The notes under the pieces: model-generated | Database searches by the model: none | Seen by the model: only the letters and a program-made list of their open reading frames with translations | Told to the model about the DNA's origin: nothing | Assembly (NCBI RefSeq): GCF_900143005.1 | Contig: NZ_FRCS01000003.1 | Span: 248,001-312,000 of the forward strand | Length of the DNA: 64,000 bases | Direction: 5' to 3' | Origin: Cryptosporangium aurantiacum | GTDB taxonomy: Bacteria; Actinomycetota; Actinomycetes; Mycobacteriales; Cryptosporangiaceae | Translations under genes and position numbers: made by a program | Shown: piece by piece, positions 33,635 through 53,978 of the stretch | Numbering within the stretch: position 1 is the first letter of the stretch | Layout of the letters: every line of letters starts with the position of its first letter

Positions 33635-34582
33635 TCATCGTGATCTCTGCTCAACTGAAGGCGAGGACGGGTTTGATCGTGCGGCCGGACGCAGCGTCAG
33701 TGGCCGCGCCTGCCGCAGCGGAGCACGAAGAACGGCAGCGATCCGCTCTGCCAGTTCTGCCGCCGAGACTCGCTCGGCCAGGCCTGAGACCACGACCGGT
33801 AGCGCTCGGGCGACTTCGTCCGTCGGTCCCGGCAGCGCGACAACCGTGGCCCAGTCGATCCGCCCGACGCCCACTCGGACGCTGTCCTTGACGTGCCGCC
33901 CGTGCCCGGACCGGTAGCTGGCGAGCACCGCGGTGGACAACTCAAGGTCGAGCAGCTGCAACGCCTCGATCGTGCGGTCCTTGTCCTCGGCGCCGACCCC
34001 GCCTGTGGTCAGCACCACCCCGAACCCGTCGGAGACCAGACGCGCGACGCGTCCGGCGATCGTGACCTCGTCGTCGGGCAGGACGCCACCGAACACGACC
34101 TCATAACCGGCCGGGCCGAACGCGGCTCGGGCGGCCTCCAGGTTTGTGTCACGCACCCGGCCGTCCGCGACCTCACCGCCGGTCGAGACCACCGCGACCC
34201 GCGTCCCGACGTAGGCACGCACGCCGTCGGCGATCCGGCTCGCCTCCGCGAGGACGTCCGGCACTTGCTCCGGTGGCGTCCCGATGACACCGAGCACGCC
34301 CAGAGAGTGCACCCGCACGTCGTCGGCCAAGACCACCCCGGCCACCGCGGACAGTGCGGCCAGCAACGCGGCCTCGCGGCCGGCCAGCGCGGACAGCTCT
34401 ATCCTCGGCTGGAGGACGTCGAAGACCACCCGGTCGTCGCGCACGTCGGTCACCAGGACCCGGTCGCGCGGCAAGCTCAGTGCAGTAGCAGCCGCGGCGG
34501 CCAGATCCGGCATGCTCACGCTGCGGAGCTCCACGCCGACCACCCACAGCTCGGTCTTGTCGAGCAGTTCGATCTCAGGCAT
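33635..34582 (-). CDS. MoCF/molybdopterin-binding domain (MogA/CinA-like) protein of LarA module 1
   Basis: A 315-residue protein, paralogue of the one at 47110-48012. The N-terminal 110 residues are module-specific (LLDKTELWVVGVELRSVSMP). Residues of about 145-280 hold the MoCF fold: VAVVSTGGEVADGRVRDTNL, EVVFGGVLPDDEVTIAGRV, VVLTTGGVGAEDKDRTIEAL and a closing VVALPGPTDEVARALPVV. This fold occurs in MogA, MoeA and CinA, where it adenylylates molybdopterin or cleaves nucleotide pyrophosphates. In an NPN setting I infer action on a nicotinate- or AMP-linked precursor rather than on molybdenum cofactor; no moa/moe genes are nearby. Its ATG overlaps the larA-like stop by eight bases. Confidence 0.8.
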   Translation of the reverse strand: MPEIELLDKTELWVVGVELRSVSMPDLAAAAATALSLPRDRVLVTDVRDDRVVFDVLQPRIELSALAGREAALLAALSAVAGVVLADDVRVHSLGVLGVIGTPPEQVPDVLAEASRIADGVRAYVGTRVAVVSTGGEVADGRVRDTNLEAARAAFGPAGYEVVFGGVLPDDEVTIAGRVARLVSDGFGVVLTTGGVGAEDKDRTIEALQLLDLELSTAVLASYRSGHGRHVKDSVRVGVGRIDWATVVALPGPTDEVARALPVVVSGLAERVSAAELAERIAAVLRAPLRQARPLTLRPAARSNPSSPSVEQRSR

Positions 34583-35984
34583 GCAGGTCTCGCTGCTCGA
34601 GCCACTTCGGCAGCAGGCGGCTCTCGACGTCGGCCACCACGGCCGGGGCCCGATCGCGCAGGAAGCCCGCCAGGCTCTCGGACACGTGGAACGCCCCGGG
34701 CAGCGAGTCGTAGACGATCACCTGATCGGTGCCCGCCTCAGCCTGGACCCGCGCCAATGCCTCGGGGAGCGCCGGGGCGACCTCCACGACGTCGGCCAGC
34801 TCGGCGTTGGACGGATCGTTGATCAGCCAACCGGCGGCCGGTCCGTCGACAAGAACGGTCAAAATGTTGCGCACGGTGGAAGTGAACGGCACGCCACCGG
34901 GCATGTAGTTGACGACAATGCCCTTGATCCCCGGGTTGACGCTCAGGAAGAGGCCGGGGTTAGTGGGCAGCTTCGACGTGAACGCCGAAAGCAGCGCCAG
35001 GTTGTCCAGGTCGAGGAAGTCGACGGCGGCGTAGAGCAGGTTGTCGAACGGCATCCCGGCCGCATAGGCGTAGACGAAGCACCCCGGGCCGTCGAAGAGC
35101 ACGACCATCTCGTCGATCTCGCCGAGCAGACGCATCAGCGGCCCGTACGTCCGCAGGATGTTCGCGCTGACCCGGCGGTTGAGCACGTCCAGGTCGTTGT
35201 CCGCGTCGACGTCGACGACGCCCTCGGGGCTGGTGTCGAGGACGATCGTCCCGACGTACTTGCTCTGCACGAAATCGCTCTCGAACACCGCGCGGCTGAC
35301 AATCTGGCCGGTCCGGGGCCCGTAGCCGAAGTGATAGGCCGAGCGGGTCTCGATGCGGGTGTAGCCCATGCCGAACGGCTTGTGCAGCCGGTCGAGCATC
35401 CGGTGCAGATAGCCCTCACGCATCTCGGTGACGTGGGTGTGGATGAAGTGGTCGGCGGCGAACAGCGGCCGGGAAAGCCAGAACTTCCCGATCCGGGTCT
35501 CGACCTCGATGCCCCGGTCGATTTGGGGGACTTCCTTGACCGGGCCCAGCCGGGCGTCCAGGTCGTAGATCTTCACCCAGTCCGGGTTCTCGATGTGGCC
35601 CATCGACTCGGCGATCCGGACGCGCACCCGCGCGCCGGTGCGGTCGGTGACGTACTTCTGGGTCTCTTCCAGCAGCACGACGTACGCCGGACCGCAGAGC
35701 GCGAAGCCGTGCGGGTTGGCCAGCAGGTTGACCGTTTCCCCCGCCCCGATCCGGGACAGGTCAAGCCTGCGCAGCCGCGCACGGGTACGTTCCCGGACGG
35801 CTTCGACGTCGGTCTGGCCCCAGGCCTCGTCGAGCGCCCACAGTGGCGGCCGGATGCCCGGATCCAGGTCGCGGACTGGCAGCGCCACGATGCCCGGCAG
35901 TTCGGCGGCGCGCATGGCGACCGCGGCGGCCGGGTCGCTCCCCTTCCAGGTGGTGTGCAGGGGCGGCGCGGGCAGGGTGAGCAT
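34575..35984 (-). CDS. LarA-family (nickel-pincer nucleotide) enzyme 1
   Basis: ATG 35984 overlaps the ferredoxin stop (TGATG) and gives 469 residues, the same length as the paralogue at 45704-47113. The two share PFGM-YxR-ETRS, DVDADNDLD and LLPKWL. In the middle, FIHTHVTEMREGYLHRM is followed by K202 and H218. That 16-residue spacing equals the spacing of Lys184 (cofactor tether) and His200 (Ni ligand) of Lactiplantibacillus LarA, though I have not aligned them. No canonical DHTR motif is evident, so the protein is divergent and should not be called lactate racemase. The nearby larBCE genes argue that it uses NPN. The reaction is unknown; a hydride-transfer racemase, epimerase or dehydrogenase is likely. 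Confidence 0.72.
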   Translation of the reverse strand: MLTLPAPPLHTTWKGSDPAAAVAMRAAELPGIVALPVRDLDPGIRPPLWALDEAWGQTDVEAVRERTRARLRRLDLSRIGAGETVNLLANPHGFALCGPAYVVLLEETQKYVTDRTGARVRVRIAESMGHIENPDWVKIYDLDARLGPVKEVPQIDRGIEVETRIGKFWLSRPLFAADHFIHTHVTEMREGYLHRMLDRLHKPFGMGYTRIETRSAYHFGYGPRTGQIVSRAVFESDFVQSKYVGTIVLDTSPEGVVDVDADNDLDVLNRRVSANILRTYGPLMRLLGEIDEMVVLFDGPGCFVYAYAAGMPFDNLLYAAVDFLDLDNLALLSAFTSKLPTNPGLFLSVNPGIKGIVVNYMPGGVPFTSTVRNILTVLVDGPAAGWLINDPSNAELADVVEVAPALPEALARVQAEAGTDQVIVYDSLPGAFHVSESLAGFLRDRAPAVVADVESRLLPKWLEQRDLHA

Positions 35985-36643
35985 CAGGCCTCCTCGAAGT
36001 TTCCGCGCAGCGCCTGCACGTCGCGGTCGAGCGGGTACATCGGGTAGGCCCGCGCGTACTCGGGAGCGACGTGGCCGGTGTCGTCCACCAGGTCGGCCGA
36101 GCCAGCCGCGATGCCGTACCACTGGAAGCCGCGCGGTGGGTTCTTCGGCGCGTCGCCGTGACCGGCCGCGGCGAGCAGCCGCAGGATCGGCTGCTGGCAG
36201 AGTTCGGTGCAGCCGGTACGCGCGCCGGTGGCCAGTGAGACGTCCTCGGGGGAATCCGCGCCCCGGAGGATCGCAGCGGCGATCTCCGCGGCCCGCGTCT
36301 CCGCGCAGAAACAGATCGGCTGTTTCGGGTGCACTCCGGCTTCCCGGCACAGCGCGCCGATCGCGTCCCGGGCGTCGTCGTCGATCGGGGTGGTGACACG
36401 GAACGGCTCGGGCAGCGGGTGCATTGCGAGCGCGTCCTCGGGGCAGATCTCGACGCAGTTCTGCGCGTTGTAGCAGTCGGGCTCGGCCAACTCGGCGACC
36501 TTGCGCGTGCCGGGGCCCACGGGATCGTCCGGGGTACGGCCCCGCAGGGTCAGCGCCACGGTGGGACACACGTTGAGACACAGGCCGCAGCCGGTGCACT
36601 TGTCGAGCAGTACCTCGGCGAGCATCCGGACCGTCTTCGCCAC
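35984..36643 (-). CDS. Ferredoxin-like Fe-S protein with BFD-like [2Fe-2S] domain, module 1
   Basis: GTG 36643 (or 36652) follows AGAGG and gives 219 residues. The N-terminal part is a bacterial-type ferredoxin: C16xxC19xxC22xxxC26P, then a second cluster region with C57, C63 and C67P that has an unusual CYNAQNC spacing. Residues 111-149 hold CxC-x31-C-x3-C (ICFCAETRAAEIAAAILRGA), as in the BFD-like [2Fe-2S] domain. The C-terminal 70 residues have no recognised motif and end with RDVQALRGNFEEA. It is the first gene of the Fd-LarA-MoCF operon, so a dedicated electron carrier for the LarA-like enzyme is the obvious reading. An operator-like motif precedes it. Confidence 0.82.
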   Translation of the reverse strand: MAKTVRMLAEVLLDKCTGCGLCLNVCPTVALTLRGRTPDDPVGPGTRKVAELAEPDCYNAQNCVEICPEDALAMHPLPEPFRVTTPIDDDARDAIGALCREAGVHPKQPICFCAETRAAEIAAAILRGADSPEDVSLATGARTGCTELCQQPILRLLAAAGHGDAPKNPPRGFQWYGIAAGSADLVDDTGHVAPEYARAYPMYPLDRDVQALRGNFEEA

Positions 36644-36668
36644 GGGCAGCACCTCTCGTCATCGCGAT

Positions 36669-36684
36669 CTAAGTAAGCTACCTT
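36669..36684. promoter_or_regulatory. CTAAGTAAGCTACCTT motif upstream of LarA module 1
   Basis: This 16-mer is identical to 38941-38956 and agrees at 13 of 16 positions with 53979-53994. A reverse-oriented relative is at 50384-50397. It has partial symmetry (AAG-N2-AGCT-N2-CTT) and lies about 25 bases upstream of the ferredoxin start, where a repressor site is expected. Confidence 0.6.
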
Positions 36685-36703
36685 TCGGGCCCGGCGTCTC
36701 GCA

Positions 36704-36815
36704 AAGCGTCCGACCTCGGCCACCCAATGCACCGTGCCCGTGGGCGGCGGCTGGCAACCGTTCGGCCTGCTCTACTGCGGAGCGTCGGCCGCGTCCGCCG
36801 AAACGCTCGGCTCCT
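36704..36815 (+). pseudogene. PaaI-type thioesterase remnant
   Basis: The plus strand contains GTCCGACCTCGGCCACCC, and then encodes QPFGLLYCGASAASAETLGS. These match two separated parts of the intact thioesterase gene at 50404-50895 (start region near 50463 and QPFGLLHGGAS near residue 62). The DNA between the two parts, about 120 bases, has been deleted, the catalytic His-Gly-Gly is now Tyr-Cys-Gly, and the sequence dissolves after 36815. It is a decayed duplicate. The remainder up to the GMC gene at 36962 is empty. Confidence 0.65.
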
Positions 36816-36961
36816 GCCACCACGCTGATCGAGCACGACGACGCCTTCATCGACCGCCTGGGCGTGACCGCCGCGCGGCGCACCCCTTCCATGTTGACAG
36901 ATGCCTTAGTAGTGTCCAGCCACTAGCTCGGTCCGCGATCGGAACCGGAAGGAAGGCGCGA

Positions 36962-38560
36962 ATGGCTTCGTACGACTACGTCGTCGTGGGAGGTGGCACG
37001 TCGGGCTGCGTCCTGGCCAGCGAACTCAGTAAGGATCCGGCGGCCCGGGTCCTGCTGTTGGAAGCAGGCAAACGCGACCGTAACCCCGTCTTCCACATAC
37101 CCAAGGGGTTCGCCTTCACCATCGAGAATCCCAAGCACTCGTGGGTCTATGAGACCGAACCGTTCGGACCACTCGGGCAGACCGAACTCTGGTCGCGGGG
37201 ACGGGTGCTCGGCGGCTCGAGCGCCATCAACGGCATGGTTTACAACCGTGGGACGAAGCCGGACTGGGACTCGATCGCTGCGGCCGGAAACCCGGGCTGG
37301 GGCTGGGACGAGATCCTCCCGATCTACCGTGACCTGGAAGACCATCAGCTCGGCGCCTCCGACGTGCGCGGCGCCGGTGGGCCGCTGCACATCAGCGTTC
37401 AGGAGAACGGCGACCCGGTCAACGAGGCCATGCTGGAGGCCGCGGGAAACATCGGACTCAAACGCGTCGACGATCTGAATGCCACCGACGACGAACGCGT
37501 CGGCTACGTGCCGGCGAATATCAAGAACGGCCTGCGCCAGAGCGCCAGCAAAGTCTTCCTGAAGCCCGCCGAGAGGCGCGCGAACCTCACCGTCCGTACA
37601 GACGTTCTGGTCACCCGGGTCGTCATTGAAGGCGACCGGGCCGTGGCTGTGGAGGTTGCCACCGGATCGTCCGTCGAGCGGGTGGCGGCCGGCAAGGAGA
37701 TCATCCTCTGCCTGGGTACTCTCGAGACGCCCAAGCTCCTTGAACTTTCCGGCATCGGTAACGCCGAGGTGCTCCGCGGGGCCGGGATTGACGTCGTGCT
37801 GGACCGCCCCATGGTGGGCGAGGACATGATCGAGCACCGCTACTTCCCGCTGCAGTTGAGGCTCAACAACCCCAAGCTCGGCTACAACGCCCGGCTCAGT
37901 AGCAAAGCCGGCCAGGCTCTCTCCGGCCTGAAGTATCTCGCCACCCGCAAGGGACCGGTCGCCTCACCGGCCTACGACCTCGTCGGCTTCCTGAAGACCA
38001 CCCCCGACCAGCCGCGGGTCGACGCGCAGATCCTGCTCACCCCCTTCACCCAAGGAATCAAGCCCCTCGACCTCACGCTGGAACAGCGGCCCGGCGCATC
38101 GATCATCGGCAACCCGCTGCGTCCGACGAGCACCGGCAGGATCCACATCGTCTCCAAGGATCCGCGCGACAACCCGCGGATCACCACCAACTACGCGTTC
38201 AACGACGCCGACCGGACGACCTACCTCGCCATGTTCCGGCGCATGCGGGACATCGCCGCAGCGCATCCGCTGGTGGACCTGGTCAAGGGGGAGACACAGC
38301 CGGGCTGGGCGGTGCAGGACGACGACTCGATCATGAGCCACGGATTGCTCAACGGTGGCACCAGCTTCCATGCCTACGGCGCGTGCAAGATGGGTCCGGA
38401 GGAGTCCGCCGTGATCGACGCACGGCTCCGCGTTCGAGGCGTCGACGGTTTGCGAGTAATGGATGCCTCCGCACTGCCCGTCATGGTCGCCGGCAACCTC
38501 AACGCGCCACTCATGGCCATGTCGGTACGCGCCGCGGCCCTCATCCTCGGAACAGCGTGA
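36962..38560 (+). CDS. GMC-family flavin oxidoreductase (choline dehydrogenase-like)
   Basis: ATG 36962 follows GGAAGGAAGG and yields 532 residues. The FAD motif YDYVVVGGGTSGCVLASEL is at the N-terminus. GMC signature 1 is GRVLGGSSAINGMVYNRG, signature 2 is GTLETPKLLELSGIG, and the active-site His is in SFHAYGACKMG with the partner Asn in NLNAPLMAMS. The family oxidises alcohols to aldehydes with FAD, passing electrons to oxygen or an acceptor. It lies alone on the plus strand between the LarA module and the remnant at 38873, and could feed an aldehyde to the dehydrogenase at 50950. Substrate unknown. Confidence 0.92.
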   Translation: MASYDYVVVGGGTSGCVLASELSKDPAARVLLLEAGKRDRNPVFHIPKGFAFTIENPKHSWVYETEPFGPLGQTELWSRGRVLGGSSAINGMVYNRGTKPDWDSIAAAGNPGWGWDEILPIYRDLEDHQLGASDVRGAGGPLHISVQENGDPVNEAMLEAAGNIGLKRVDDLNATDDERVGYVPANIKNGLRQSASKVFLKPAERRANLTVRTDVLVTRVVIEGDRAVAVEVATGSSVERVAAGKEIILCLGTLETPKLLELSGIGNAEVLRGAGIDVVLDRPMVGEDMIEHRYFPLQLRLNNPKLGYNARLSSKAGQALSGLKYLATRKGPVASPAYDLVGFLKTTPDQPRVDAQILLTPFTQGIKPLDLTLEQRPGASIIGNPLRPTSTGRIHIVSKDPRDNPRITTNYAFNDADRTTYLAMFRRMRDIAAAHPLVDLVKGETQPGWAVQDDDSIMSHGLLNGGTSFHAYGACKMGPEESAVIDARLRVRGVDGLRVMDASALPVMVAGNLNAPLMAMSVRAAALILGTA

Positions 38561-38872
38561 ACGCCGGCGAGCCGATGCCACCGCAGGCGCATCGGCTCGC
38601 TTCGTCTCGGTAGACGGCGGCTGGCCAGCGCGGAGGCCCGGCGCGTGGGTGAGCGCCCACACCACCACTTCCCTGCCGGACGGCGGCGTCCACACACTCG
38701 CTCATCAGCAGATTCCCCGCGAGTGGATGTCGTGCTGCCCGACGATGAGGCGGCAACTCGCGCAGGAGTGCGACGTGCATGCCTCGCCGTGGGACTGACC
38801 CGACTCCGTCGTCATCCAACTGGAGGACAACGGCTACGGGCTTCCTCTCCGCACCGGGCCGGAGGGCACCGC

Positions 38873-38940
38873 GCGGCCGGATACCCGAATCCAGGTCGCG
38901 GACCGGCAGCGCCACGGGCAGCGCCTCTCGTCATCGCAAC
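38873..38940 (-). pseudogene. Fused remnant of larA-like and ferredoxin 5' ends
   Basis: The minus strand reads ALPVRDLDSGIRP, nearly identical to residues of about 34-46 of the LarA-like protein at 34575-35984. It then joins abruptly to DNA matching the start of the ferredoxin gene and its promoter (GGCAGCGCCTCTCGTCATCG at 38916-38935, one mismatch with 36647-36666). The whole ferredoxin gene and the first 33 codons of larA are deleted at a short shared GCCACG. This is a third, dead copy of module 1. The preceding 38561-38872 holds no gene I can recognise. Confidence 0.7.
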
Positions 38941-38956
38941 CTAAGTAAGCTACCTT
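38941..38956. promoter_or_regulatory. CTAAGTAAGCTACCTT motif upstream of the AKR operon
   Basis: Identical to 36669-36684 and embedded in a longer duplicated stretch (38916-38975 versus 36647-36706). It lies 38 bases upstream of the AKR GTG start, so the dead module's promoter may now drive the aldo/keto reductase operon. Confidence 0.6.
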
Positions 38957-38993
38957 GCAGGCCGAGCGTCTCGCTAGCGATCGAGGAGCACCA

Positions 38994-39971
38994 GTGGACT
39001 ACGTGCGGTTGGGCACCACCGGTTTGCGAGTCTCGCGGCTCTGCCTGGGGTGCATGAGCTACGGCGATCCCGGCCGGGGAGCGCACGCCTGGACACTGCC
39101 GGAGGCGGACGCCCGCCCGTTCCTGCAGCGGGCCTGGGAACTCGGCATCAACTTCTTCGACACCGCGAACGTCTACTCCGACGGCCACAGCGAGGAGATC
39201 CTCGGCCGGGCGATCAAAGACTTCATGCGCCGCGAGGACGTCGTGCTCGCCACGAAGGTGCACGGCCCGATGCGCAAGGGCCCGAACGCAGGCGGCCTGT
39301 CCCGCAAGGCGATCTTCACCGAGATCGACGCGAGCCTGCGCCGGCTCGGCACCGACTACGTCGACCTCTACCAGATCCACCGCTGGGACCCCCGCACCCC
39401 GCTCGCCGAGACGCTGGAAGCGCTGCACGACGTCGTCAAGGCGGGCAAGGCGCGGTACCTCGGCGCCTCGTCGATGTGGGCCTGGCAGTTCGCCCAAGCC
39501 CTCTATACCGCCGACCTGCACGGCTGGACCCGGTTCGTCTCGATGCAGAACCACTACAACCTCATCAACCGCGAAGAGGAACGGGAGATGCTGCCGCTCT
39601 GCGCCGATCAGGGCATCGGCGTGATCCCGTGGAGCCCGCTGGCGCGTGGCCGGCTGACCCGCGACTGGGGCGAGACGACGACCCGCTCGGAGAACGACGG
39701 TTTCGGCCGGACGCTCTACCGGTCGGAGGAGGCCGACCGGGCGGTCGCGGATCGGGTCGCGGAGGTGGCGGAGGCACGCGGCGCGCCCCGGGCGCAGGTG
39801 GCGCTGGCGTGGGTCGCCCAGCAGGCGGCGGTGACCGCTCCGATCATCGGGGCGACCAAACCGCACCACCTCGAGGACGCCGTCGCGGCCCTGAGCCTGG
39901 ATCTGACCGACGAGGAGACGAAACGACTCGAGGAGCCCTACGTTCCGCACGAGGTCGTGGGCTTCCGGTGA
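38994..39971 (+). CDS. Aldo/keto reductase
   Basis: GTG 38994 with GAGGAG just upstream gives 325 residues. The TIM-barrel AKR motifs are complete: GINFFDTANVYSDGHSEEIL with Asp and Tyr of the catalytic tetrad, DVVLATKVHG with the Lys, DLYQIHRWDP with the His, and NADPH-binding GVIPWSPLARGRL. The family reduces aldehydes and ketones with NADPH and includes beta-etherase-like and sugar-acting members. It is the first of three overlapping or close plus-strand genes (AKR, MBL, epimerase). Confidence 0.92.
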   Translation: MDYVRLGTTGLRVSRLCLGCMSYGDPGRGAHAWTLPEADARPFLQRAWELGINFFDTANVYSDGHSEEILGRAIKDFMRREDVVLATKVHGPMRKGPNAGGLSRKAIFTEIDASLRRLGTDYVDLYQIHRWDPRTPLAETLEALHDVVKAGKARYLGASSMWAWQFAQALYTADLHGWTRFVSMQNHYNLINREEEREMLPLCADQGIGVIPWSPLARGRLTRDWGETTTRSENDGFGRTLYRSEEADRAVADRVAEVAEARGAPRAQVALAWVAQQAAVTAPIIGATKPHHLEDAVAALSLDLTDEETKRLEEPYVPHEVVGFR

Positions 39972-40771
39972 GGGTCGGCGACGTCGAGATCCTCCCGCTC
40001 AACGACGGGTGGCTGCACGCTCCGGCCGCGTTCTTCGGCCCGACGGCCGACTTCGCCGCCCACCAGGACCTGCTCGGCCCCGACGGGACGATGCAGCTGC
40101 CCATCGGCGCGTTCGTGCTGCGGACCAACGACACGACCGTGCTGATCGACGCCGGTGTCGGCGACGTGCACAACTCGTACTTCGACGGCGGTCGGCTGCT
40201 GGATCGGCTCACGGCGAACGGGCTCACGCCCGGGGACATCGATCGGGTGGTCTGCACACACCTCCACGCCGACCACACCGGGTGGGTGATCGACGAACGG
40301 GACCGCTCCCCGGTGTTCGGCAACGCCGTGTTCAGCACCGGTGCCGCGGACTGGGAGCTGTTCGTCGAGCAGAAGGCGGGCGGGCGCGCCGCGCTCTCCC
40401 CCCACCTGTACGAAGGGCTGCGGGCGCTCGCGGACGCCGACCGCGTGGAGCTGCTCTCCGGCGACGCGCCGATCGCTCCCGGCGTCTCCTGTCTGGCCGC
40501 GCCGGGCCACACACCGGGGCACTTCGTCGTCGTGATCTCGTCGGGCACGGCGCGGGCCCTCCTGCTAGGCGACGCGATCACCTGTCCGGTGCAGCTGGAG
40601 GAGGCCGAGTGGGGCGCCATCGCGGACGTCGACCCGGCGCTGGCCGCACGCACCCGCGAACTGCTCTGGCGGGAGCTGGAGACCGAGGGAACGGTGGGGA
40701 CCGGAGCTCACTTCCCCGACCTCGAGTTCGGCCGGGTGCTGAGCGGCGAGGGACGTCGATGGCTGACCTGA
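39968..40771 (+). CDS. MBL-fold metallo-hydrolase
   Basis: The GTG start at 39968 overlaps the AKR stop (GTGA), giving 267 residues of the metallo-beta-lactamase fold. The zinc motif is HLHADHTG, with later ligands in APGHTPGHFVV and LLGDAI. The N-terminus LPLNDGWLHAPAAFFGP is typical of the lactonase-like branch. Likely a lactonase or thioester/ester hydrolase that opens the product of the upstream reductase or oxidase. I cannot name the substrate. Confidence 0.87.
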   Translation: MRVGDVEILPLNDGWLHAPAAFFGPTADFAAHQDLLGPDGTMQLPIGAFVLRTNDTTVLIDAGVGDVHNSYFDGGRLLDRLTANGLTPGDIDRVVCTHLHADHTGWVIDERDRSPVFGNAVFSTGAADWELFVEQKAGGRAALSPHLYEGLRALADADRVELLSGDAPIAPGVSCLAAPGHTPGHFVVVISSGTARALLLGDAITCPVQLEEAEWGAIADVDPALAARTRELLWRELETEGTVGTGAHFPDLEFGRVLSGEGRRWLT

Positions 40772-40784
40772 GCGGAGAACACGC

Positions 40785-41636: not shown

Positions 41637-41639
41637 ACC

Positions 41640-42824
41640 TCAGCGCGCGTAGACCTCGGCGCATTGGGCTTCGGCCGTGGCCAGCACCACCTTGGGCGGG
41701 AGGCCGGTGGCCGCGGCGACCGTCAGCACGTCCTCGTACTCGACCGAGACGTTGAGCACCTCGCCGTCGAGCGACGCGATCTTCGTCCGGACCGGGTGGC
41801 CGGCCACCTCGACCCTGCCCGCGGTCCGATCGAGGGCCGCTTTGGTGACCGTGCGCTTGCGGACGCCGATCGTGCTGGTGTGCCGGAACAGCACCCGCAG
41901 CAGGGCGTCGACATGATCCGGGCGGCACAGCACCGAGACCGTGTGCGCCGGCCGGCCCTTCTTCATCAGGATCGGCGTCAGCCACGCGTCGGATGCTCCG
42001 GCGGCGAGCAGTGCGGCGAGCGTCGGCGGCCAGAGCCGCGGGTCGAGATCATCCACGTTCGATTCCAGGACGGTGGCCTCGCCGGACGCCTCGGCCGCGC
42101 GACCCACGACCAGGCGGGTGACGTTGGGGTGGCCGACCGGATCGCGACGCCCCGCGCCGACCCCGACGGTGGCGGGCGTCATCCCCGGCATAGCGCCGAA
42201 CCCGGACGCCAGCGTCGTCGCGACCGCCACCCCGGTGGGGGTCGCCAGCTCGGCCTCGACCGATCCGGAGGTCGCCGGGGCCGCGGCCGCCCGGAGCAGC
42301 TCGAGCACGGCCGGACCCGGCACGGGCAGGTCACCGTGCGCGGTGGTCATCCGGCCGCTGCCCACCGCGATCGGGCTGCAGATCAGCCGATCGATGCCGA
42401 GCGCGTGCAGCCCGGCGACCGCGCCGACGATATCCGCGAGACTGTCCAGCGCACCGACCTCGTGGAAGTGGACGGTCTCGATCGGCCGGCCGTGCACGCG
42501 GGCCTCGGCAGCGCCGAGCGCGGTGAACACGTCGGCGGCCCGACCGCGGACGACCGGGTGGAGGTCGGCGTCGGCGAGCAGGCCGAGGATGTCCCCGAGC
42601 CGGCGGGCGGCGGTGCTGGGCGGCGCGTCCACGTGGACCCGCGCGGCACGCAGACCTGCGCGCCGGACTTCCTCGGTCCGCAGCGTCACCCGTTCCGGCA
42701 GGTGCAGCCCGTCGACCGCGGCCTGCAGCGTGGCCGCCTCGACGCCGGCATCCAGGCAGGCACCGAGCAGCATGTCGCCGCTGATCCCGCCGCTGGCGTC
42801 CAGCCATCCCAGCGTCTCGCTCAT
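41640..42824 (-). CDS. larC: Nickel insertion protein LarC (pyridinium-dithiocarboxylate nickel chelatase)
   Basis: A 394-residue LarC in one uninterrupted frame. In Lactiplantibacillus the protein needs a programmed frameshift between LarC1 and LarC2; none is needed here. The N-terminus LDASGGISGDMLLGACLDAG and the segment HFHEVGALDSLADIVGAVAG are LarC family signatures, and the C-terminal half carries LESNVDDLDPRLWPPTLAAL. LarC uses CTP to insert nickel into the dithiocarboxylate precursor, the last step of NPN synthesis. The start overlaps the LarE stop by four bases. Confidence 0.92.
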   Translation of the reverse strand: MSETLGWLDASGGISGDMLLGACLDAGVEAATLQAAVDGLHLPERVTLRTEEVRRAGLRAARVHVDAPPSTAARRLGDILGLLADADLHPVVRGRAADVFTALGAAEARVHGRPIETVHFHEVGALDSLADIVGAVAGLHALGIDRLICSPIAVGSGRMTTAHGDLPVPGPAVLELLRAAAAPATSGSVEAELATPTGVAVATTLASGFGAMPGMTPATVGVGAGRRDPVGHPNVTRLVVGRAAEASGEATVLESNVDDLDPRLWPPTLAALLAAGASDAWLTPILMKKGRPAHTVSVLCRPDHVDALLRVLFRHTSTIGVRKRTVTKAALDRTAGRVEVAGHPVRTKIASLDGEVLNVSVEYEDVLTVAAATGLPPKVVLATAEAQCAEVYAR

Positions 42825-43657
42825 CGGGCCGGTGCCGTCTGCCGCTCGTTGAGCGCCCCGGAGCGGAAGCCACGGGGATCCAGTTCCACGGTGTCGAAGC
42901 CGGTCACCGCGTCGAGCAACCCGGCCGAGGCGGCCACCGCGGGGAGCAGGTCGGCGTCCACCTCGACCCGGGCCACCTCGCCGAGGTCACGCACCCGCAG
43001 GTTCCGCACCGGGATGCCCGCGCCCGCCAGCGCGCTGCGTAACGCGGCTTCCGCGCGCTCGATCCGGGACAGCCGCAGCGGGGTCACGCTCAGCCCGTAG
43101 GCGATCCGGCTGGACAGGCATGCCGCTGCCGGCTTGTCCGCGGTGACCAGCCCCCAGTCCCGGGAGGCCGCTCGGATCTGCGCCTTGGTCAGACCGGCAT
43201 CACGCAGCGGCGTCACCGCTCCCCGTGCGGCGGCGGCGCGGATGCCCGGCCGGAACGGATCGCGGGCGTCGTCAGCGTTGGTGCCGGTCGCGACCGACGC
43301 GAAGCCCTCGGCATCGGCCAGCGGCGTGAGGACGTCGAGGAGCTCGGCCTTGCAGTGGAAGCAGCGGTCGGTGCCGTTCTGGACGTAGCCGGGGCGCGCG
43401 AGCTCGTTCGTCGACGGGGTGCGATGCGCGACGCCGAGGCCGGCGGCGAACCGGCCTGCGTCGGCCAGCTCGGCGGCCGGCAGGGACGGGCTCACCGCGG
43501 TCGCGGCCAGCACCCGCTCGGGTCCGAGGGCTCGGACCGCCGCGGCGAGCAGGAACGCCGAGTCCGCACCGCCGGAGAACGCCACGAGCACGGATCCGAG
43601 CTCACGCAGGGCCGCGTCCAGCGTGGCCAGCCGCGCGCGGAGATCGCTGTCGATCAT
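42821..43657 (-). CDS. larE: ATP-dependent sacrificial sulfur transferase LarE
   Basis: A 278-residue PP-loop ATPase with VAFSGGADSAFLL at residues 25-37. Cys180 in PAAACLSSRIAYG sits where LarE uses a Cys whose sulfur is transferred. Further Cys residues in DRCFHCKAELL (C99, C102) raise the possibility of a [4Fe-4S]-using LarE as described for Thermotoga, which would be catalytic rather than sacrificial. LarE converts the two carboxylates of the LarB product to thiocarboxylates. The gene starts 56 bases inside the end of larB. Confidence 0.9.
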   Translation of the reverse strand: MIDSDLRARLATLDAALRELGSVLVAFSGGADSAFLLAAAVRALGPERVLAATAVSPSLPAAELADAGRFAAGLGVAHRTPSTNELARPGYVQNGTDRCFHCKAELLDVLTPLADAEGFASVATGTNADDARDPFRPGIRAAAARGAVTPLRDAGLTKAQIRAASRDWGLVTADKPAAACLSSRIAYGLSVTPLRLSRIERAEAALRSALAGAGIPVRNLRVRDLGEVARVEVDADLLPAVAASAGLLDAVTGFDTVELDPRGFRSGALNERQTAPAR

Positions 43658-44372
43658 GGGCCACTCCTGAGTGGTTGAGGATACGCAGGGCAGCGCACGC
43701 GGCGCCGAAGCCGTTGTCGATGCCGACCACCGCGATGCCGGGGCTGCAGGACGCGTGCATGGCCAGCAGCGCGGTGACGCCCTCCAGACCGGCGCCGTAG
43801 CCGACGCTGGTCGGGATCGCCAGGATCGGCGCGGTGGTGAGACCGGCGGCGACGCTGGCCAGCGCCCCCTCCATCCCGGCGACCACCAGCACCACGTCGG
43901 CGGCGCGCAGCGGCTCGACGACGGCGAGCACTCGGTGCAGGCCGGCGACCCCGACGTCGGCGAGCAATGTCGCCTGCACGCCGTAGGCGGTCAGCGTCGC
44001 CAGTGCCTCGCACGCGACCGGAAGGTCAGCGGTGCCTGCGGTGAGAACGATCGTGTTCTGGCCGCGGGGTGCTGCCGGGCGCCAGGCCAACAAAGCGGTG
44101 TCCGGCCCGGTGTCGGTCCGGACACCGCCGGGATTCGCGGCGAGCGCGGCCGCGGCCTGCTCGGCGTTCGCCCGGGTCAACAGCACCGGGCCGCCGTCGG
44201 GGTCGCCCAGCAGGCCGCTGACCGCGGCCGCGCACTGCGCCGGCGTCTTGCCCGGCGCGTACACGGCCTCGGCGATCCCGGTGCGGGCCAGCCGACGGTG
44301 ATCCAGCCGCAGTTCCGGCCCGGCGTCAGTGGGTCCGGAGTCAGCGACCAGGGCGTCAACCGGCCGGATCAC
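43602..44372 (-). CDS. larB: Nickel pincer cofactor biosynthesis protein LarB
   Basis: GTG 44372 overlaps the TetR stop (GTGA), giving 256 residues. The C-terminal PurE-like domain contains TADLPVACEALATLTAYGV, VVAGMEGALASVAAGLTTAP and ILAIPTSVGYGAGLEGVTAL, the LarB core. LarB carboxylates nicotinic acid adenine dinucleotide at C5 and releases AMP, the first step to NPN. Only the C-terminal tail after NHSGVA is odd: it overlaps the larE start by 56 bases and is probably read through because the true ancestral stop is lost. Confidence 0.9.
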   Translation of the reverse strand: MIRPVDALVADSGPTDAGPELRLDHRRLARTGIAEAVYAPGKTPAQCAAAVSGLLGDPDGGPVLLTRANAEQAAAALAANPGGVRTDTGPDTALLAWRPAAPRGQNTIVLTAGTADLPVACEALATLTAYGVQATLLADVGVAGLHRVLAVVEPLRAADVVLVVAGMEGALASVAAGLTTAPILAIPTSVGYGAGLEGVTALLAMHASCSPGIAVVGIDNGFGAACAALRILNHSGVAHDRQRSPRAAGHAGRGPA

Positions 44373-44986
44373 TGTCGGCCCTCTCGCTCGGTGGTGAAGC
44401 CGGCCAGCAACATCTCGACGTTGGCCCGCGACAACTGCGAAGCCCGCTGGAGTGTCAGCCCGGAGAACCCGGCCAGCGACATCTTCGCGTGACCGAACAC
44501 GATCGCGATGATGCCGAGCGCGGTGATCCTGCACTCCGACCTCGTCGTGCCGGTGAGGGCCGCGACGAGATCGACGAATTGCTCGAACGCCGCCCGGCTC
44601 CAGGTCGCAAGCGTCGCCGACTCGCGTTGCAGACCACCGTCGAAGATCAGGATGAACGCGCCCGGCTCGTCCTGGGCGAACGCGAAGAAGTCATCGTGCA
44701 GGTTCCGCAGGGCCCGCTCCGGATCGGACAGATCGACCGGGTGCACCGCGCGCCGGGCGTCCCACCGGGCCGTGCAGGCGTCCGCGGTGGCCAGCAGGAG
44801 GTCTTGCAGCCCGGCGTAGTGCCGGTAGGGAGCGCCGGGGCTCACCCCGGCCCGCCGTGCGCACTCGGCCATCGTCACCGCTCCGAGGCCGCGTTCGCTG
44901 ACCAGCGCGACCACGGCCTCCTGCAGGGCGGCCGCGAGCGCGCCGTGGTGGTACCGGCGGGAGACGGCCGGCGACGTGGTGGGCAT
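44369..44986 (-). CDS. TetR/AcrR-family regulator of the lar genes
   Basis: ATG 44986 gives 205 residues; an ATG at 45001 is possible. The helix-turn-helix covers residues 12-58 (LVSERGLGAVTMAECARRAG, VSPGAPYRHYAGLQDLL) and is followed by a WHG-type ligand domain (FILIFDGGLQRESATLATW). It heads the operon with larB, larE and larC (all overlapping) and faces the ferredoxin-larA-like operon. The two 19-bp inverted repeats between them are its expected binding sites, so it would control cofactor synthesis and enzyme together. Confidence 0.9.
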   Translation of the reverse strand: MPTTSPAVSRRYHHGALAAALQEAVVALVSERGLGAVTMAECARRAGVSPGAPYRHYAGLQDLLLATADACTARWDARRAVHPVDLSDPERALRNLHDDFFAFAQDEPGAFILIFDGGLQRESATLATWSRAAFEQFVDLVAALTGTTRSECRITALGIIAIVFGHAKMSLAGFSGLTLQRASQLSRANVEMLLAGFTTEREGRQ

Positions 44987-45014
44987 CCCGCCATCCTGCA
45001 TTCCTTGACCACCG

Positions 45015-45066
45015 ATGTAAAGGGTCGTTACATTGGCCGGACTCCCGATGTAAGGAATCGTTACAT
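45015..45066. promoter_or_regulatory. Two 19-bp TetR operators ATGTAA-N7-TTACAT
   Basis: ATGTAAAGGGTCGTTACAT at 45015-45033 and ATGTAAGGAATCGTTACAT at 45048-45066 have the same perfect six-base arms and seven-base spacer, 33 bases apart, that is three helical turns. They fill the space between the divergent TetR-larBEC and ferredoxin-larA-like operons. Confidence 0.85.
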
Positions 45067-45095
45067 CAAACCGACTTCCGCCGATCGGAGCGCCG

Positions 45096-45707
45096 ATGAA
45101 GCTGGTCAAACAGGCGATCGAAGTCATCGAGGACAACTGCACCGGGTGTTACCGGTGTGAACGGGCCTGTCCGACCGCGGCGATCACGATGGTCGGTCCA
45201 CGGCGGGAGGCGCTCGCCGTGGTCGACAACGACAGTTGCATCTCCTGCTTCCGCTGTATCGACGTGTGCCCGGACGACGCGATGCTCGCGGTCGAGCGCG
45301 ACGAGCCCCGAAAGGTGGGCACCAGCGCACGGTCCGTCGACCCGACCGAGCTGAACGCGCTGTGCGAGAAGGCCGGGCTCGACCCCGGTCAAATGGGTTG
45401 CCTCTGCAGCTCGACGAAGATCCGGGAGATGGCGGCGGCGGTGCTGCGCGGCGCGTCGACGTTCGAGGAGCTGGCGCTGGCCACCGGCGCGGCGTCCGGC
45501 TGCCTGCTCTACTGCGGCGTGCCGATGCAGCGGGTGCTGCGCGCGCACCTGGGCGACCGGCTCGACGAGAGCGGGTCGAAGGTGCGCCGGTACGACTCCA
45601 CGCAGGTCCTGCTGGAGATCGACGAGGCCGCCGCCGACGCCTATCCGTTGTTCGCCTTGCGCCGCGAGCAGGCCGCCGCACGGGCTAAGCAGGAGGAGAA
45701 GCGATGA
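45096..45707 (+). CDS. Ferredoxin-like Fe-S protein with BFD-like [2Fe-2S] domain, module 2
   Basis: A 203-residue protein. It has two complete [4Fe-4S] motifs, C15xxC18xxC21xxxC25P and C48xxC51xxC54xxxC58P. A BFD-like domain follows at residues 100-145 with C102, C104, C136 and C140 (GCLCSSTKIREMAAAVLRGA). The CxC-x31-C-x3-C spacing is the same as in the module 1 protein. The C-terminal tail (EEAAADAYPLFALRREQAAA) also resembles module 1 at the YPLF/YPMY point. Three clusters would let it collect and pass single electrons. The stop overlaps the larA-like start (ATGA), with AGGAGGAG as its ribosome site. Confidence 0.85.
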   Translation: MKLVKQAIEVIEDNCTGCYRCERACPTAAITMVGPRREALAVVDNDSCISCFRCIDVCPDDAMLAVERDEPRKVGTSARSVDPTELNALCEKAGLDPGQMGCLCSSTKIREMAAAVLRGASTFEELALATGAASGCLLYCGVPMQRVLRAHLGDRLDESGSKVRRYDSTQVLLEIDEAAADAYPLFALRREQAAARAKQEEKR

Positions 45708-47113
45708 CCCAGACGCTGCCGTTCGACCCGGTGGTGGAGCCTCCCGAGGTCATGCCCACGGTCTACGGGCCACCGCCGCAGGCCGACCGTGGCCGCGATC
45801 TGCCCGGCCTGGTTTCGATCAGGACCCGGGAGCTCTTCCCCGACATCCCGGTCGCCCCCTACCGCGGCGGTGACGACACCGCCGCCGTCCGCCGGGCCGC
45901 CGAGGCCGCCCTCGCGCACGTCGACATGAGCATGATCCTGCCGGCACACACCGTGAACGTGCTCTGCTCCGAGCACGGGTTCGGGATGCTCGGCGGCCAG
46001 GCCTACGTCGAGATGCTGACCACGGTCAAAGACGAGATCCAGCGCCGCACCGGCTGCCGCAACGTCCGGCTCGTCGTCATCGCCTGGCTCGGCGCGAAGG
46101 AATCGGACGAACTGGTCGAGTACTACGAGCTCGACCGACGCTTCGACGGCAGGGTTCGCGGCGTCACCCCGATGGACCAGGGCATCCCGATCGAGACCGC
46201 GATGGGGACGCTCTACGGTCTGCGCAAGGTCTACGACGGCGACTGGATCATCCACGCCCACTACGACGACCCGCGTGAGGTCTACGTGCACCGCGCGATC
46301 GACCGGATCACCAAGCCGTTCGGGATGTCGTACGCCCGGATGGAGACCCGCTCGATCTTCCACATCACGATGGGCCCGCGCAGCGGGAACTTCATCGGCC
46401 GGGCGATCGCCGACTCCGAGTTCGTACGGTCGAAGCTCGCGTTCACCACCACGCTGGTCACCTCTCCCGACGGCGTCCTCGACGTGGACGCCGACAACGA
46501 CCTGAACGCGATCGGCAACCGGATGACCGCGAACATCCTGCGGTCCTACGGCAAGATGCTGACGCTGCTGCGCGCCGTCGGGGACTGCGTCGCGGTCATC
46601 GACGGGGCGAAGTGGCCCTATTACATCCACGCCGGCGGGATGATCTTCGGCCACCTCTTCTACAACGCGGTCGACTGGTTCGACCTCGACCGCCCGGACG
46701 CCGACGTCGCGGTGGAAAAAGCCGTCGCCGCGGGGTTCAGCAAGTCCCTCAAGGGCGTCGTCCTGAACCAGGCGCTGATCGGGCTGAACTTCACCAGCAT
46801 GGCGATGCTCTACCCGCTGGTGATCGCGAACCCGGAGATGGCAGCTGCGATGCGGCACGACTTCTCCAACCCGATGTTCCTGGATCACGCACTGGTGGCC
46901 GAGAACCTGTTCCAGGCCGTCGAGATGGCGGTCGAGCGGGCCGGCACCGACCGGGTCATCGTCTTCGACGGGTCGTACGGATCGCTGAACGTCAGCCCTT
47001 CGATGGCGACGCACCTGCGTGAGCTCGCGCCGGAGGCCGCCCGACTGGTGGACGAGGAGCTGCTGCCCAAGTGGCTCAAGCAGCGCGGCATCGACCCGCT
47101 GATGCTGGCATGA
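45704..47113 (+). CDS. LarA-family (nickel-pincer nucleotide) enzyme 2
   Basis: A 469-residue paralogue of the module 1 enzyme. Landmarks are SMILPAHTVNVL, EYYELDRRFDGRVRGVTPMD, DWIIHAHYDDPREVYVHRA and KPFGMSYARMETRSIFH, with H184, H186, H196, K204 and H220. K204-H220 keep the 16-residue spacing of the Lys tether and Ni-ligand His in characterised LarA. Known LarA interconverts D- and L-hydroxyacids by hydride transfer to the NPN cofactor. The fixed link to a three-cluster Fe-S protein suggests instead that reducing equivalents leave or enter the site. Divergent from the larBEC operon, same regulator. The actual substrate is unknown. Confidence 0.78.
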   Translation: MTQTLPFDPVVEPPEVMPTVYGPPPQADRGRDLPGLVSIRTRELFPDIPVAPYRGGDDTAAVRRAAEAALAHVDMSMILPAHTVNVLCSEHGFGMLGGQAYVEMLTTVKDEIQRRTGCRNVRLVVIAWLGAKESDELVEYYELDRRFDGRVRGVTPMDQGIPIETAMGTLYGLRKVYDGDWIIHAHYDDPREVYVHRAIDRITKPFGMSYARMETRSIFHITMGPRSGNFIGRAIADSEFVRSKLAFTTTLVTSPDGVLDVDADNDLNAIGNRMTANILRSYGKMLTLLRAVGDCVAVIDGAKWPYYIHAGGMIFGHLFYNAVDWFDLDRPDADVAVEKAVAAGFSKSLKGVVLNQALIGLNFTSMAMLYPLVIANPEMAAAMRHDFSNPMFLDHALVAENLFQAVEMAVERAGTDRVIVFDGSYGSLNVSPSMATHLRELAPEAARLVDEELLPKWLKQRGIDPLMLA

Positions 47114-48012
47114 GTTCGCCGTTCGACCTGCTCGACAAGAAGGAACTGCGGGTCACCGACGTCCACCTGGACGGCGCGAACCTCACCGACCTGGCGCGTG
47201 CCGTGGCCGAGGTACTCGGTCTCGACCCGGCGGAGGTGCTGGTCACCGACTACCTCGACGCGGTCCTGACGTTCGACGTGCTGCGCCCCAGCCTCTACCC
47301 GCACCAGCTGCTCGACCGGAAGAACGCGCTGCTCGCGCACCTCGCGGGGACACCCGGCGTGCGCTTGGGCGAGCACGCGCGGGTCAGCGCCGACGGCGTG
47401 CTCGGGTGGATCGCGGCCGACGGTGCGGACGGCGTCGGCGTCGCGGACGCGCTGGCGACCGCGCAACGGCTCGCCACCGGCATGGACGCCCGGATCGCCA
47501 GGCGAGTGCTGATCTTCTCCACCGGAGCCGAGGTGGCCGCGGCTCAGATCCGCGACACCAACCGGGAGACGGTAGCGACCCGCCTGACCGAGGCCGGCTA
47601 CGCCTGCGAGTTCGGCGGCACGATACGCGACGACGTCGACCTGATCGCGGGCACGATCCGCGCCGCCGCCGGGCGGGGCTACGGGCTCGTCGTCACCACG
47701 GGTGGCGTCGGCGCCGAGGCGAAGGACTGCACGGTGGAGGCCGTCCTGCGCCTCGACCCCGGCGCGGCGACGCCCTACCTGTTCCGGGTCGAGCCCGGAC
47801 ACGGACGGCACCTGCGCGACGGCGTCCGAGTCGCGGTCGGCAGCTGCCTGGGCAGCCGGATCGTCTGCCTGCCCGGCCCGAACGACGAGGTCGCCGCCGG
47901 CCTCGACGCGATCCTCCCCGGCCTGCGGGACGGCTGGGGCAACGCGGAGCTGGCCGAGGCGCTCGCCGGACGTCTCCGTGGACGGCTGCGAGACCGGATG
48001 GCCGGGTCATGA
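47110..48012 (+). CDS. MoCF/molybdopterin-binding domain (MogA/CinA-like) protein of LarA module 2
   Basis: ATG 47110 overlaps the larA-like stop, giving 300 residues, paralogous to 33635-34582. The N-terminus LLDKKELRVTDVHLDGANLT matches the first copy. The MoCF core reads VLIFSTGAEVAAAQIRDTNR, CEFGGTIRDDVDLIAGTIRA, VVTTGGVGAEAKDCTVEAV and ends VCLPGPNDEVAAGLDAILPG. CinA-type relatives cleave ADP-ribose-like pyrophosphates and MogA adenylylates a pterin, so a nucleotide-transfer step in NPN maturation or repair is a reasonable inference. Strict co-location with LarA-like and Fe-S genes in both modules supports a shared process. Confidence 0.8.
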   Translation: MSSPFDLLDKKELRVTDVHLDGANLTDLARAVAEVLGLDPAEVLVTDYLDAVLTFDVLRPSLYPHQLLDRKNALLAHLAGTPGVRLGEHARVSADGVLGWIAADGADGVGVADALATAQRLATGMDARIARRVLIFSTGAEVAAAQIRDTNRETVATRLTEAGYACEFGGTIRDDVDLIAGTIRAAAGRGYGLVVTTGGVGAEAKDCTVEAVLRLDPGAATPYLFRVEPGHGRHLRDGVRVAVGSCLGSRIVCLPGPNDEVAAGLDAILPGLRDGWGNAELAEALAGRLRGRLRDRMAGS

Positions 48013-48806
48013 CACGGTCCGCCTACCGGGCGCTCACCCAGGAGCTGCTGCAGGACGTCCCGGGGCGGCACCGGGCCGTGGTCAGCCCTACCGAACCCGG
48101 GGTGGTCGCCGGTCTGGGTCACCTCGATCCGGGAATCGGGCGCGGCGAGTGGCGGATCATGGTCGCCGACGGTGCGACGGCCAAGGCCGGCGAGCCCCTG
48201 ATCGAGATCGTCGGCACGGCCGGCGAACTCGCCGCCGCCGAGGACCACGTCCTCGGTGCGCTGGGATACGCGGGCGGGGTCGCCCGGCGCTGCCGAGAGC
48301 TCCGGTCGTCGTGCCCGACCGGCCTGCGGATCGCCTGCGGCGGCTGGAAAAAGCTTCCGGCGCCGCTCAAGCCGTTGCTCCGCGCCGGTCTGGACGCCGG
48401 CGGTGTCACACCGCGGCTGATCGACGGCGAGTTCGTCTATGTGGACAAGAACGTCGTGCGCCTGCTGGGCGGCGTCGAGGCCGCGGCGGCAGGGGCCGCG
48501 AAACTCGACCACGGCCCGTCCGCGGTGCAGGTGACATCGGCGGCCGACGCCGTCCGGGCGGCTCGGGCCGGTGTCGGCATCGTCATGGTCGACACCGGGG
48601 ACCTCGCGACGCTGACCGCCGCACACCGGGAACTCGACGCCGCCGGGCTGCGCGGCACAGTGGTGCTGGCGTTCGCGGGCGGGGTCACCAGCGACGATCT
48701 CGTCGCGGTGTGGCGCGCCGGCGCGGAGGTCGTCGACCTGGGCCGGGCGATCCTCGACGCGCCGCTCTGGGATCTGCACGTCGAGGTCGCGGACCCGGCC
48801 GGGTGA
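48009..48806 (+). CDS. NadC/ModD-like quinolinate phosphoribosyltransferase homologue in the lar operon
   Basis: ATG 48009 overlaps the previous stop, giving 265 residues of the QPRTase fold. The N-terminal barrel domain has ATAKAGEPLIEIVGTAGEL and AEDHVLGALGYAGGVA. The barrel carries CPTGLRIACGGWKKLP in place of TRKTxPGxR, then VGIVMVDTGDLATLTAA, VVLAFAGGVTSDDLVAVW and GAEVVDLGRAILDAPLWDL, matching the NadC order MLDN, EASGGI and DVISVG. It differs enough from NadC to be a separate branch, like ModD. NaMN is the precursor of NaAD, the LarB substrate, so a dedicated feeder (or remodeller) for NPN synthesis is a strong contextual guess. Module 1 lacks a copy. Confidence 0.75.
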   Translation: MTRSAYRALTQELLQDVPGRHRAVVSPTEPGVVAGLGHLDPGIGRGEWRIMVADGATAKAGEPLIEIVGTAGELAAAEDHVLGALGYAGGVARRCRELRSSCPTGLRIACGGWKKLPAPLKPLLRAGLDAGGVTPRLIDGEFVYVDKNVVRLLGGVEAAAAGAAKLDHGPSAVQVTSAADAVRAARAGVGIVMVDTGDLATLTAAHRELDAAGLRGTVVLAFAGGVTSDDLVAVWRAGAEVVDLGRAILDAPLWDLHVEVADPAG

Positions 48807-52473: not shown

Positions 52474-52508
52474 GGTCCTTCCCTACGGTGAGGCATGCGG
52501 CTTCGGAG

Positions 52509-53867: not shown

Positions 53868-53978
53868 CTTGCCTCCTTCAGCCCGAAGAGGGCAGCTCGA
53901 CGGCGGAATGATCCGCGGAGTGGTGCGGCCGGACCGCCATGCAGACAATTCTCGTTCGGAGATATAGCACGGAGTTAA

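Follow-up and report, generated by a model that had tools for sequence, protein, structure and literature searches.

LarA-like proteins with dedicated Fe-S partners beside a complete nickel-pincer nucleotide pathway in Cryptosporangium aurantiacum: candidate pincer-dependent redox enzymes

Does the nickel-pincer nucleotide (NPN) of LarA racemases also serve enzymes that exchange electrons with the cell? The question is raised by a locus of the actinomycete Cryptosporangium aurantiacum (assembly GCF_900143005.1), contained in the window, that is, the whole stretch of 64,000 nucleotides analysed here (contig NZ_FRCS01000003.1, positions 248,001 to 312,000). Two operons flank larC-larE-larB, and both have the same gene order: an iron-sulfur (Fe-S) protein, a protein of 469 residues, here called LA, and a MoCF-domain protein. 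The original prediction, made from the sequence alone, took the LA proteins for LarA-family members that could be nickel-pincer dehydrogenases or reductases. According to the present analysis, LA is most aptly described as a new branch of the LarA/DUF362 superfamily and is probably a client of an NPN-type cofactor, a conclusion that we hold more firmly than that of net redox chemistry by LA. That LA1 and LA2 are pincer-dependent dehydrogenases or reductases, using NPN or one of its derivatives and relaying electrons through the Fe-S protein, has in our estimate about an even chance, the redox role and the substrate being the parts that we infer.

The gene coordinates confirm that the two operons share one gene order. 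The minus-strand operon consists of FeS1 (35984-36652; 222 residues, ferredoxin-type plus BFD-type [2Fe-2S]; Fer4_7 40 bits), LA1 (34575-35984; of LarA-fold type by homology to LA2, with the tether-lysine and nickel-ligand-histidine positions kept) and MoCF1 (33635-34582; 315 residues, PF00994 67.4 bits). The plus-strand operon consists of FeS2 (45096-45707; 203 residues, two 4Fe-4S motifs plus BFD-type cysteines), LA2 (45704-47113; the modelled protein, of LarA fold), MoCF2 (47110-48012; 300 residues, PF00994 77.2 bits) and a fourth coupled gene, overlooked originally, that encodes a quinolinate phosphoribosyltransferase (QPRTase)-like protein (48009-48806; 265 residues). Successive operon genes overlap by 1, 8, 4, 4 and 4 bases, and the paralogues of the two operons are 39% (LA), 45% (MoCF) and 35% (Fe-S) identical. 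Between the operons, on the minus strand, lie the genes for LarC (41640-42824; nickel insertion in pincer cofactor synthesis; TIGR00299 193.7 bits, cut-off 90; PF01969 420.3 bits), LarE (42821-43657; sulfur insertion; TIGR00268 274 bits, cut-off 150) and LarB (about 43602-44345, start codon uncertain; carboxylase/hydrolase of nicotinic acid adenine dinucleotide; NF033503 224.6 bits, cut-off 175). All three genes named in the original prediction are thus present, each over its curated NCBIfam cut-off, and the NPN pathway of the window is complete.

By family models, LA is not a LarA. LA1 and LA2 match no family of Pfam or NCBIfam, their sole hit (LA1, E 0.21) being at chance level. Across 20 aligned LA proteins (window plus loci L002-L016, without L010 and L015), the best family match of any is at E 0.13 in Pfam and E 0.08 in NCBIfam; none is to Lar_N (PF09861), which does not appear for any of these proteins even at E<=1. 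An identification as ordinary LarA was rejected on this lack of matches to family models. In sequence searches of the PDB, LA1 had no match and LA2 only two, both at chance level (E 0.44 and 1.9), and the single Lar_N match of the C. aurantiacum genome lies outside the window. The fold evidence comes from one model, that of LA2, built by AlphaFold2 from 20 sequences (predicted local distance difference test, pLDDT, 87.3; predicted TM-score, pTM, 0.89). Searched against the PDB with Foldseek, it has three matches at E<=0.001, all of the LarA family (8ezh, 1.7e-8; 6d6z, 1.4e-7; 7s91, 3.1e-7) and at 14% identity, while the next match, at E 8.4e-3, is an unrelated structure. The label 'LarA-family' is thus right for the fold and fails for the family models, because neither LA matches Lar_N; the only profile link above shuffled controls leads to DUF362 (PF04015).

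This link emerged from hhalign comparisons in which the LA profile comprised 23 of the 28 distinct LA genes that remain after merging duplicates (partial, split or near-identical entries, namely L010, L015, L016 and the two rows of L012, were excluded); LarA was represented by 28 of 30 loci (without L048 and L053) and DUF362 by 19 of 20 (without L098). LA against DUF362 scored 36.8, with a shuffled maximum of 23.0 and 0/40 column shuffles as good, and the best of five comparisons of LA with unrelated or LarA profiles was 26.7, reached by the C-terminal part of LarC, an unrelated control (P 0.01). The LarA and DUF362 profiles match each other (P 2e-8). PF04015 itself has no match in LA1, LA2 or the 20-protein LA set, nor elsewhere in the C. 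aurantiacum genome. The fold search is unable to separate LarA from DUF362, because one DUF362 query had no DUF362 structure among its own matches.

Residues of LA and LarA were paired through an alignment of their N-terminal domains, and the underlying LA-LarA profile alignment is no better than shuffles. In the alignments to LarA and to DUF362, K204 and H220 of LA pair with the LarA lysine that tethers the pincer and the histidine that ligates nickel (roles of LarA residues after PMC7583248 and PMC12393405). Both residues are invariant in 23/23 LA sequences and are 16 positions apart, the same spacing as K183/H199 in LarA. The two positions hold lysine and histidine in all 23 LA, all 28 LarA and all 19 DUF362 sequences, those of DUF362 being 15 apart in 19/19. 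At the place of the second catalytic histidine of LarA (H173; H174 in Lactiplantibacillus plantarum LarA), all 23 LA sequences have an arginine (R191 in LA2). Near the place of the first (H107; H108 in L. plantarum), a histidine occurs in 7/23, the sequences of LA1 type; both catalytic histidines are missing from the 16 sequences of LA2 type. In the accepted LarA mechanism, racemisation needs both histidines (PMC12393405). Two-base racemase activity therefore appears unlikely for LA, because the histidine pair of the racemases is lost, though a dehydrogenase or reductase is not thereby proven.

LA is linked with its Fe-S partner in sequence motifs, gene order and inheritance. Both Fe-S proteins of the window match Fer4-type models; with the BFD model (Fer2_BFD, cut-off 26 bits), FeS1 scores above the cut-off (37.3) and FeS2 below it (19.3), and the four BFD-type cysteines are present in 28/28 aligned Fe-S proteins. 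Each 4Fe-4S motif includes one variable cysteine, kept in 18/25 and 17/26 sequences, respectively; in the second motif of FeS1, Ala63 takes the place of FeS2 Cys51. Each of the 28 distinct LA genes is immediately preceded, on its own strand, by an Fe-S gene, which holds for none of the 30 Lar_N loci; this contrast supports the original interpretation. The gap between the Fe-S and LA matched regions is at most 165 bp in 27 of the 28 pairs and 424 bp in L020. The Lar_N loci are the 30 with loci out of at least 40 Lar_N matches, one of them (L048) scoring under the Lar_N cut-off; their flanks of up to 1.5 kb, several of which end at contig ends, hold no Fe-S, MoCF or QPRTase-like match at E<=1e-5, and LarC is present in three. 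The distances among LA proteins correlate with those among their Fe-S partners (mirror-tree r 0.88, 23 pairs, 0/2000 permutations), which fits joint inheritance. The two trees disagree in their deepest branches: in the Fe-S tree, the partners of LA1-type proteins adjoin those of the window LA2 and its mycobacterial relatives.

The Fe-S link is not confined to one strain. Relatives of LA are found in 15 loci of named contigs, from mycobacteria, from Acidimicrobial and Ilumatobacteraceae metagenome-assembled genomes (MAGs), from MAGs titled Proteobacteria, Deltaproteobacteria and Syntrophobacteria, and from one Dehalococcoidia MAG. LA occurs in 8/396 genomes of a phylum sample (that of C. aurantiacum included) and in 1/239 genomes of an order sample, C. 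aurantiacum alone. The original suggestion that the trio moves as a unit holds for the Fe-S protein, which accompanies every LA, and not always for MoCF, whose gene was detected in only 15/22 LA loci (the QPRTase-like gene in 14/22); in three Acidimicrobial-type loci (L009, L012 and L013) there is one MoCF for two Fe-S/LA pairs within the available stretch. Plasmid spread of LA was considered and dropped, as a tblastn search of a plasmid collection with LA2 gave no match. Within the window, the minus-strand segment 38873-38974 is, to judge from its letters, a remnant of a duplicated FeS1-LA1 module. It contains pieces of LA1 and of the FeS1 start and upstream region (direct repeats D2 and D3): 44 nt are 93% identical to LA1 35846-35889 and adjoin 76 nt that are 87% identical to 36627-36702. 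The 14-mer AAGTAAGCTACCTT is in both the relic and the source copies and has no third place in the window, with up to two mismatches allowed.

The cofactor genes of the window also point to LA. Its LarE has the CxxC...C cysteines (Cys99, Cys102 and Cys180) of the [4Fe-4S] sulfur-insertase type, which obtains sulfur from a cysteine desulfurase (PMC9283937). A second larE-larB-larC set lies near the canonical larA of the same genome (C3:195-200 kb, in locus L118, C3:190000-207000), about 90 kb from the window set; because that other set is close to the canonical larA, the window set looks dedicated. A LacI-like gene (named by eye) is also near this larA. LarC is present in 17/19 LA genomes and Lar_N in 13/19. 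Among the six LA genomes without Lar_N, one MAG (G403) also has no LarC match, and the other five (three mycobacteria, one Ilumatobacteraceae MAG and one proteobacterial MAG) have LarB over its cut-off as well as LarC; in the three mycobacteria, the LarB and LarC genes adjoin LA. As no LarA was detected in these five genomes despite their LarB and LarC, LA is likely to be their pincer client. Among 138 sampled genomes of the genus to which Mycobacterium sp. GA-2829 belongs, three have LA and nine have LarC, and all three are within the nine (P=2e-4).

The remaining operon genes encode relatives of nucleotide-handling enzymes. MoCF1 and MoCF2 share a C-terminal, molybdopterin-binding-like domain and its fold with MoaB, MogA, CinA and MoeA (both match PF00994, and a fold search with an AlphaFold2 model of MoCF2, of middling confidence with pLDDT 79.4 and pTM 0.60, matched the same domain). 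They differ from these proteins in their location with lar and LA genes, in an N-terminal domain that matches no family (about 105 residues; 47110-47430 and 34260-34582) and in scores far under the equivalog cut-offs: the best of the MogA/MoaB/CinA/MoeA models gives 51.1 (MoCF1) and 45.9 (MoCF2) against 285 bits, and the molyb_syn domain 57.3 and 65.6 against 85.35 bits. A relationship of the N-terminal domain to LarC2 was rejected (hhalign P 0.03 over 20 columns). The QPRTase-like protein has both QPRTase Pfam domains over cut-off (PF01729 and PF02749), in common with NadC and ModD, and scores under the cut-offs of both enzymes (62.8 against 198.4 bits for NadC, TIGR00078; 23.5 against 178.85 for ModD). 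It has a conserved CGxWKK where aligned NadC-type enzymes (4i9a, 2jbm) have GTRKT, a stretch that we take to be their quinolinate-binding site. Since the score is under the cut-off and the residues of this site are replaced, an identification as NadC was rejected. Modification or loading of the pincer cofactor is the probable task of the MoCF and QPRTase-like proteins; they could act on a pyridine nucleotide, through adenylylation by analogy with MogA or through a phosphoribosyl step. Their genes are two candidates for an additional step of pincer cofactor assembly.

The proposed mechanism builds on what was observed, namely the order of the genes, the predicted fold, the invariant residues, the tie to the Fe-S gene and the presence of LarB and LarC; cofactor occupancy, cofactor modification, electron transfer and its direction are what the proposal adds. 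The LarB, LarE and LarC whose genes lie between those of LA1 and LA2 would make NPN, or a derivative, the MoCF and QPRTase-like proteins would modify or load it, and Lys204 would hold it while His220 completes the coordination of nickel. A hydride would pass from a substrate C-H to the pincer, or in the opposite direction. It would not simply be handed back to the opposite face of the substrate, because LA has not kept the acid/base histidine pair of LarA; instead, its two electrons would leave or enter singly by way of the clusters in the Fe-S partner. Overall, the substrate would be dehydrogenated or reduced rather than racemised.

Several findings weigh against this proposal. The profile of LA does not match that of LarA above chance (11/40 column shuffles as good in hhalign), and the Foldseek TM-scores of LA2 against LarA structures are moderate (0.38-0.52, best 0.47/0.52; rmsd 8.2-8.8). 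The nucleotide-binding aspartate and arginine of LarA are not kept: the place of Asp72 holds glutamate in 16 LA sequences and proline in seven, and that of Arg75 holds phenylalanine in 23/23, whereas the 28 LarA sequences have aspartate in 28/28 and arginine in 21/28. It is therefore not assured that LA binds NPN itself, or binds it in the usual pose. LarA-like groups without the conserved catalytic and NPN-binding residues were omitted in PMC7583248 as probable NPN non-users. The seven LA1-type sequences, furthermore, keep a histidine near the H107 place. Two MAGs (G400 and G403) have LA but no LarC match, and in the genus sample LA is missing from six of the nine genomes that have LarC. In the phylum sample, LarC is present in 8/8 LA genomes, compared with 248/396 overall (P=0.023); this association is weak because LarC is so common there, and its use as strong proof was rejected. 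The absence of Lar_N is itself uncertain, because a Corynebacterium glutamicum control genome has a LarC match and no Lar_N match, so some types of LarA may escape the scan; among the characterised LarA homologues listed in PMC11770544 is one of C. glutamicum.

Some of these points would suit an enzyme that retains the pincer and performs no net redox chemistry. LA could be a pincer-dependent isomerase or epimerase, perhaps one-directional, with an Fe-S protein that only re-reduces or repairs the cofactor. The LarA fold of the LA2 model and the histidine of the LA1-type sequences fit this account, and there is a precedent in single-histidine LarA proteins, for which one-directional racemases or epimerases have been suggested (PMC12393405). 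It is nevertheless unlikely, as the LA2-type majority (16/23) lacks both histidines, no such partner is seen in the available flanks of the 30 Lar_N loci, and a general reductant would not have to be paired one-to-one with each paralogue and co-vary with it, as the Fe-S proteins do. The changed nucleotide-binding residues could also mean that LA belongs with DUF362 and does without NPN; its Fe-S partner would then take the place of the C-terminal, cysteine-rich portion of DUF362 proteins, and larBCE would serve others, for example canonical LarA. The sole above-shuffle profile link (36.8, 0/40) and the cysteines near the C-terminus of the DUF362 consensus speak for such a relationship. This is a still less probable account: five LA genomes contain LarB and LarC although Lar_N has no match in them, the account has to accommodate a genome with one larBCE near canonical larA and another inside the LA cluster, and the tether-lysine and nickel-histidine positions are invariant across the LA, LarA and DUF362 sets.

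A further account moves the Fe-S protein from catalysis to biosynthesis, the Fe-S, MoCF and QPRTase-like proteins forming a maturation pathway for a variant pincer cofactor in which the Fe-S protein gives sulfur or electrons to synthesis. A variant cofactor would fit the altered nucleotide-binding residues, and MoCF and QPRTase-like proteins, present in 15/22 and 14/22 LA loci, both come from nucleotide/pterin or phosphoribosyl enzyme families. The Fe-S genes, however, track the copy number of LA (28/28) and not the cofactor genes, and the window LarE is already of the CxxC...C [4Fe-4S] type supplied by a cysteine desulfurase (PMC9283937); we regard this account as improbable, and more so than the two above.

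LA proteins, for which a role as pincer-dependent dehydrogenases or reductases is preferred here, depart from known systems in several respects. LarA racemases and epimerases (PF09861, DUF2088; 8ezh, 6d6z, 7s91) resemble LA in fold, in Lys/His spacing and in the link to larB, larC and larE. LA differs from this superfamily in having no Lar_N match, nucleotide-binding Asp/Arg or catalytic histidine pair, and in having a dedicated Fe-S partner with MoCF and QPRTase-like genes. The single-histidine LarA proteins of Blautia wexlerae and Streptococcus plurextorum are like LA in that a catalytic histidine is missing, which suggests a different chemistry; unlike LA, they are LarA/DUF2088 proteins with asparagine at the His173 place and a carbohydrate-gene context, and no Fe-S partner is mentioned in the excerpt of PMC12393405. 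DUF362 proteins, the closest to LA by profile, carry their cysteine-rich part in the same chain, near the C-terminus, whereas LA has a separate Fe-S protein and no PF04015 match. We know of no cofactor for DUF362. In the LarA tree of PMC11770544, DUF362 is the outgroup. One DUF362 gene, among the DUF362 loci L079-L097, lies 3 kb from LarC (G399:C7; L061, L095), and because of this and the invariant Lys/His pair (19/19), DUF362 proteins may also hold pincer clients; on the other side, a Bacteroides control genome matches DUF362 but not LarC.

Homologues of larB, larE and larC occur without one of larA in about 15% of the genomes analysed, from which further NPN-binding proteins have been suggested (PMC11796402). 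LA is a concrete candidate for some of these, with no Pfam or NCBIfam model, a LarA-like fold and five LarB- and LarC-containing genomes without detected LarA; it is not the general answer, because it is rare (8/396 genomes of the phylum sample). It has also been proposed that LarA homologues without the catalytic residues might perform another hydride chemistry (PMC7583248). The dedicated Fe-S partner makes that idea testable, and if it is true, the role of NPN would extend from internal hydride shuttling to net redox reactions. On a wider and more tentative view, which we think possible but somewhat less than probable, LA and its Fe-S protein would be the first nickel-pincer oxidoreductases, two-subunit enzymes with a hydride on the pincer, an Fe-S relay and a nucleotide modified by MoCF and QPRTase-like proteins; they would account for NPN use in some bacteria with larBCE and without larA, and DUF362 might be a second, larger group. 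A search by title and start of abstract found no such LA/Fe-S system among the matches listed from the open-licence PMC literature, a scope that mostly excludes subscription journals.

The surrounding genes offer hints of the substrate. Downstream of the plus-strand operon, the window encodes aldehyde dehydrogenase-like, FAD_binding_2, IclR-like and CoA-transferase III proteins (50950-55977). Related genes lie in the same order by the LA1 relative of Mycobacterium sp. E796 (L014), a CoA-transferase III gene follows LA in L008, and in the MAG of L005 the genes for an aldehyde ferredoxin oxidoreductase and UbiD (6798-8684 and 19217-20716) adjoin its two LA modules. This context suggests acid catabolism through CoA esters, without naming the acid, and the nearby acyl-CoA catabolic genes are a weak indication that LA acts on a carboxylic acid or an acyl-CoA; no single substrate follows from the neighbours in the window, L014, L008 and L005. 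Divergent from the plus-strand operon is a minus-strand gene for a TetR-like regulator (44369-45142; named by reading the sequence), which has a homologue at the same place in L002. Finally, an 88-nt stretch occurs twice in the window, at 36731-36818 and 50590-50677, with 82% identity; the copies lie in a PaaI-like thioesterase gene (named by eye) and at the 5' end of the frame 36734-38560.

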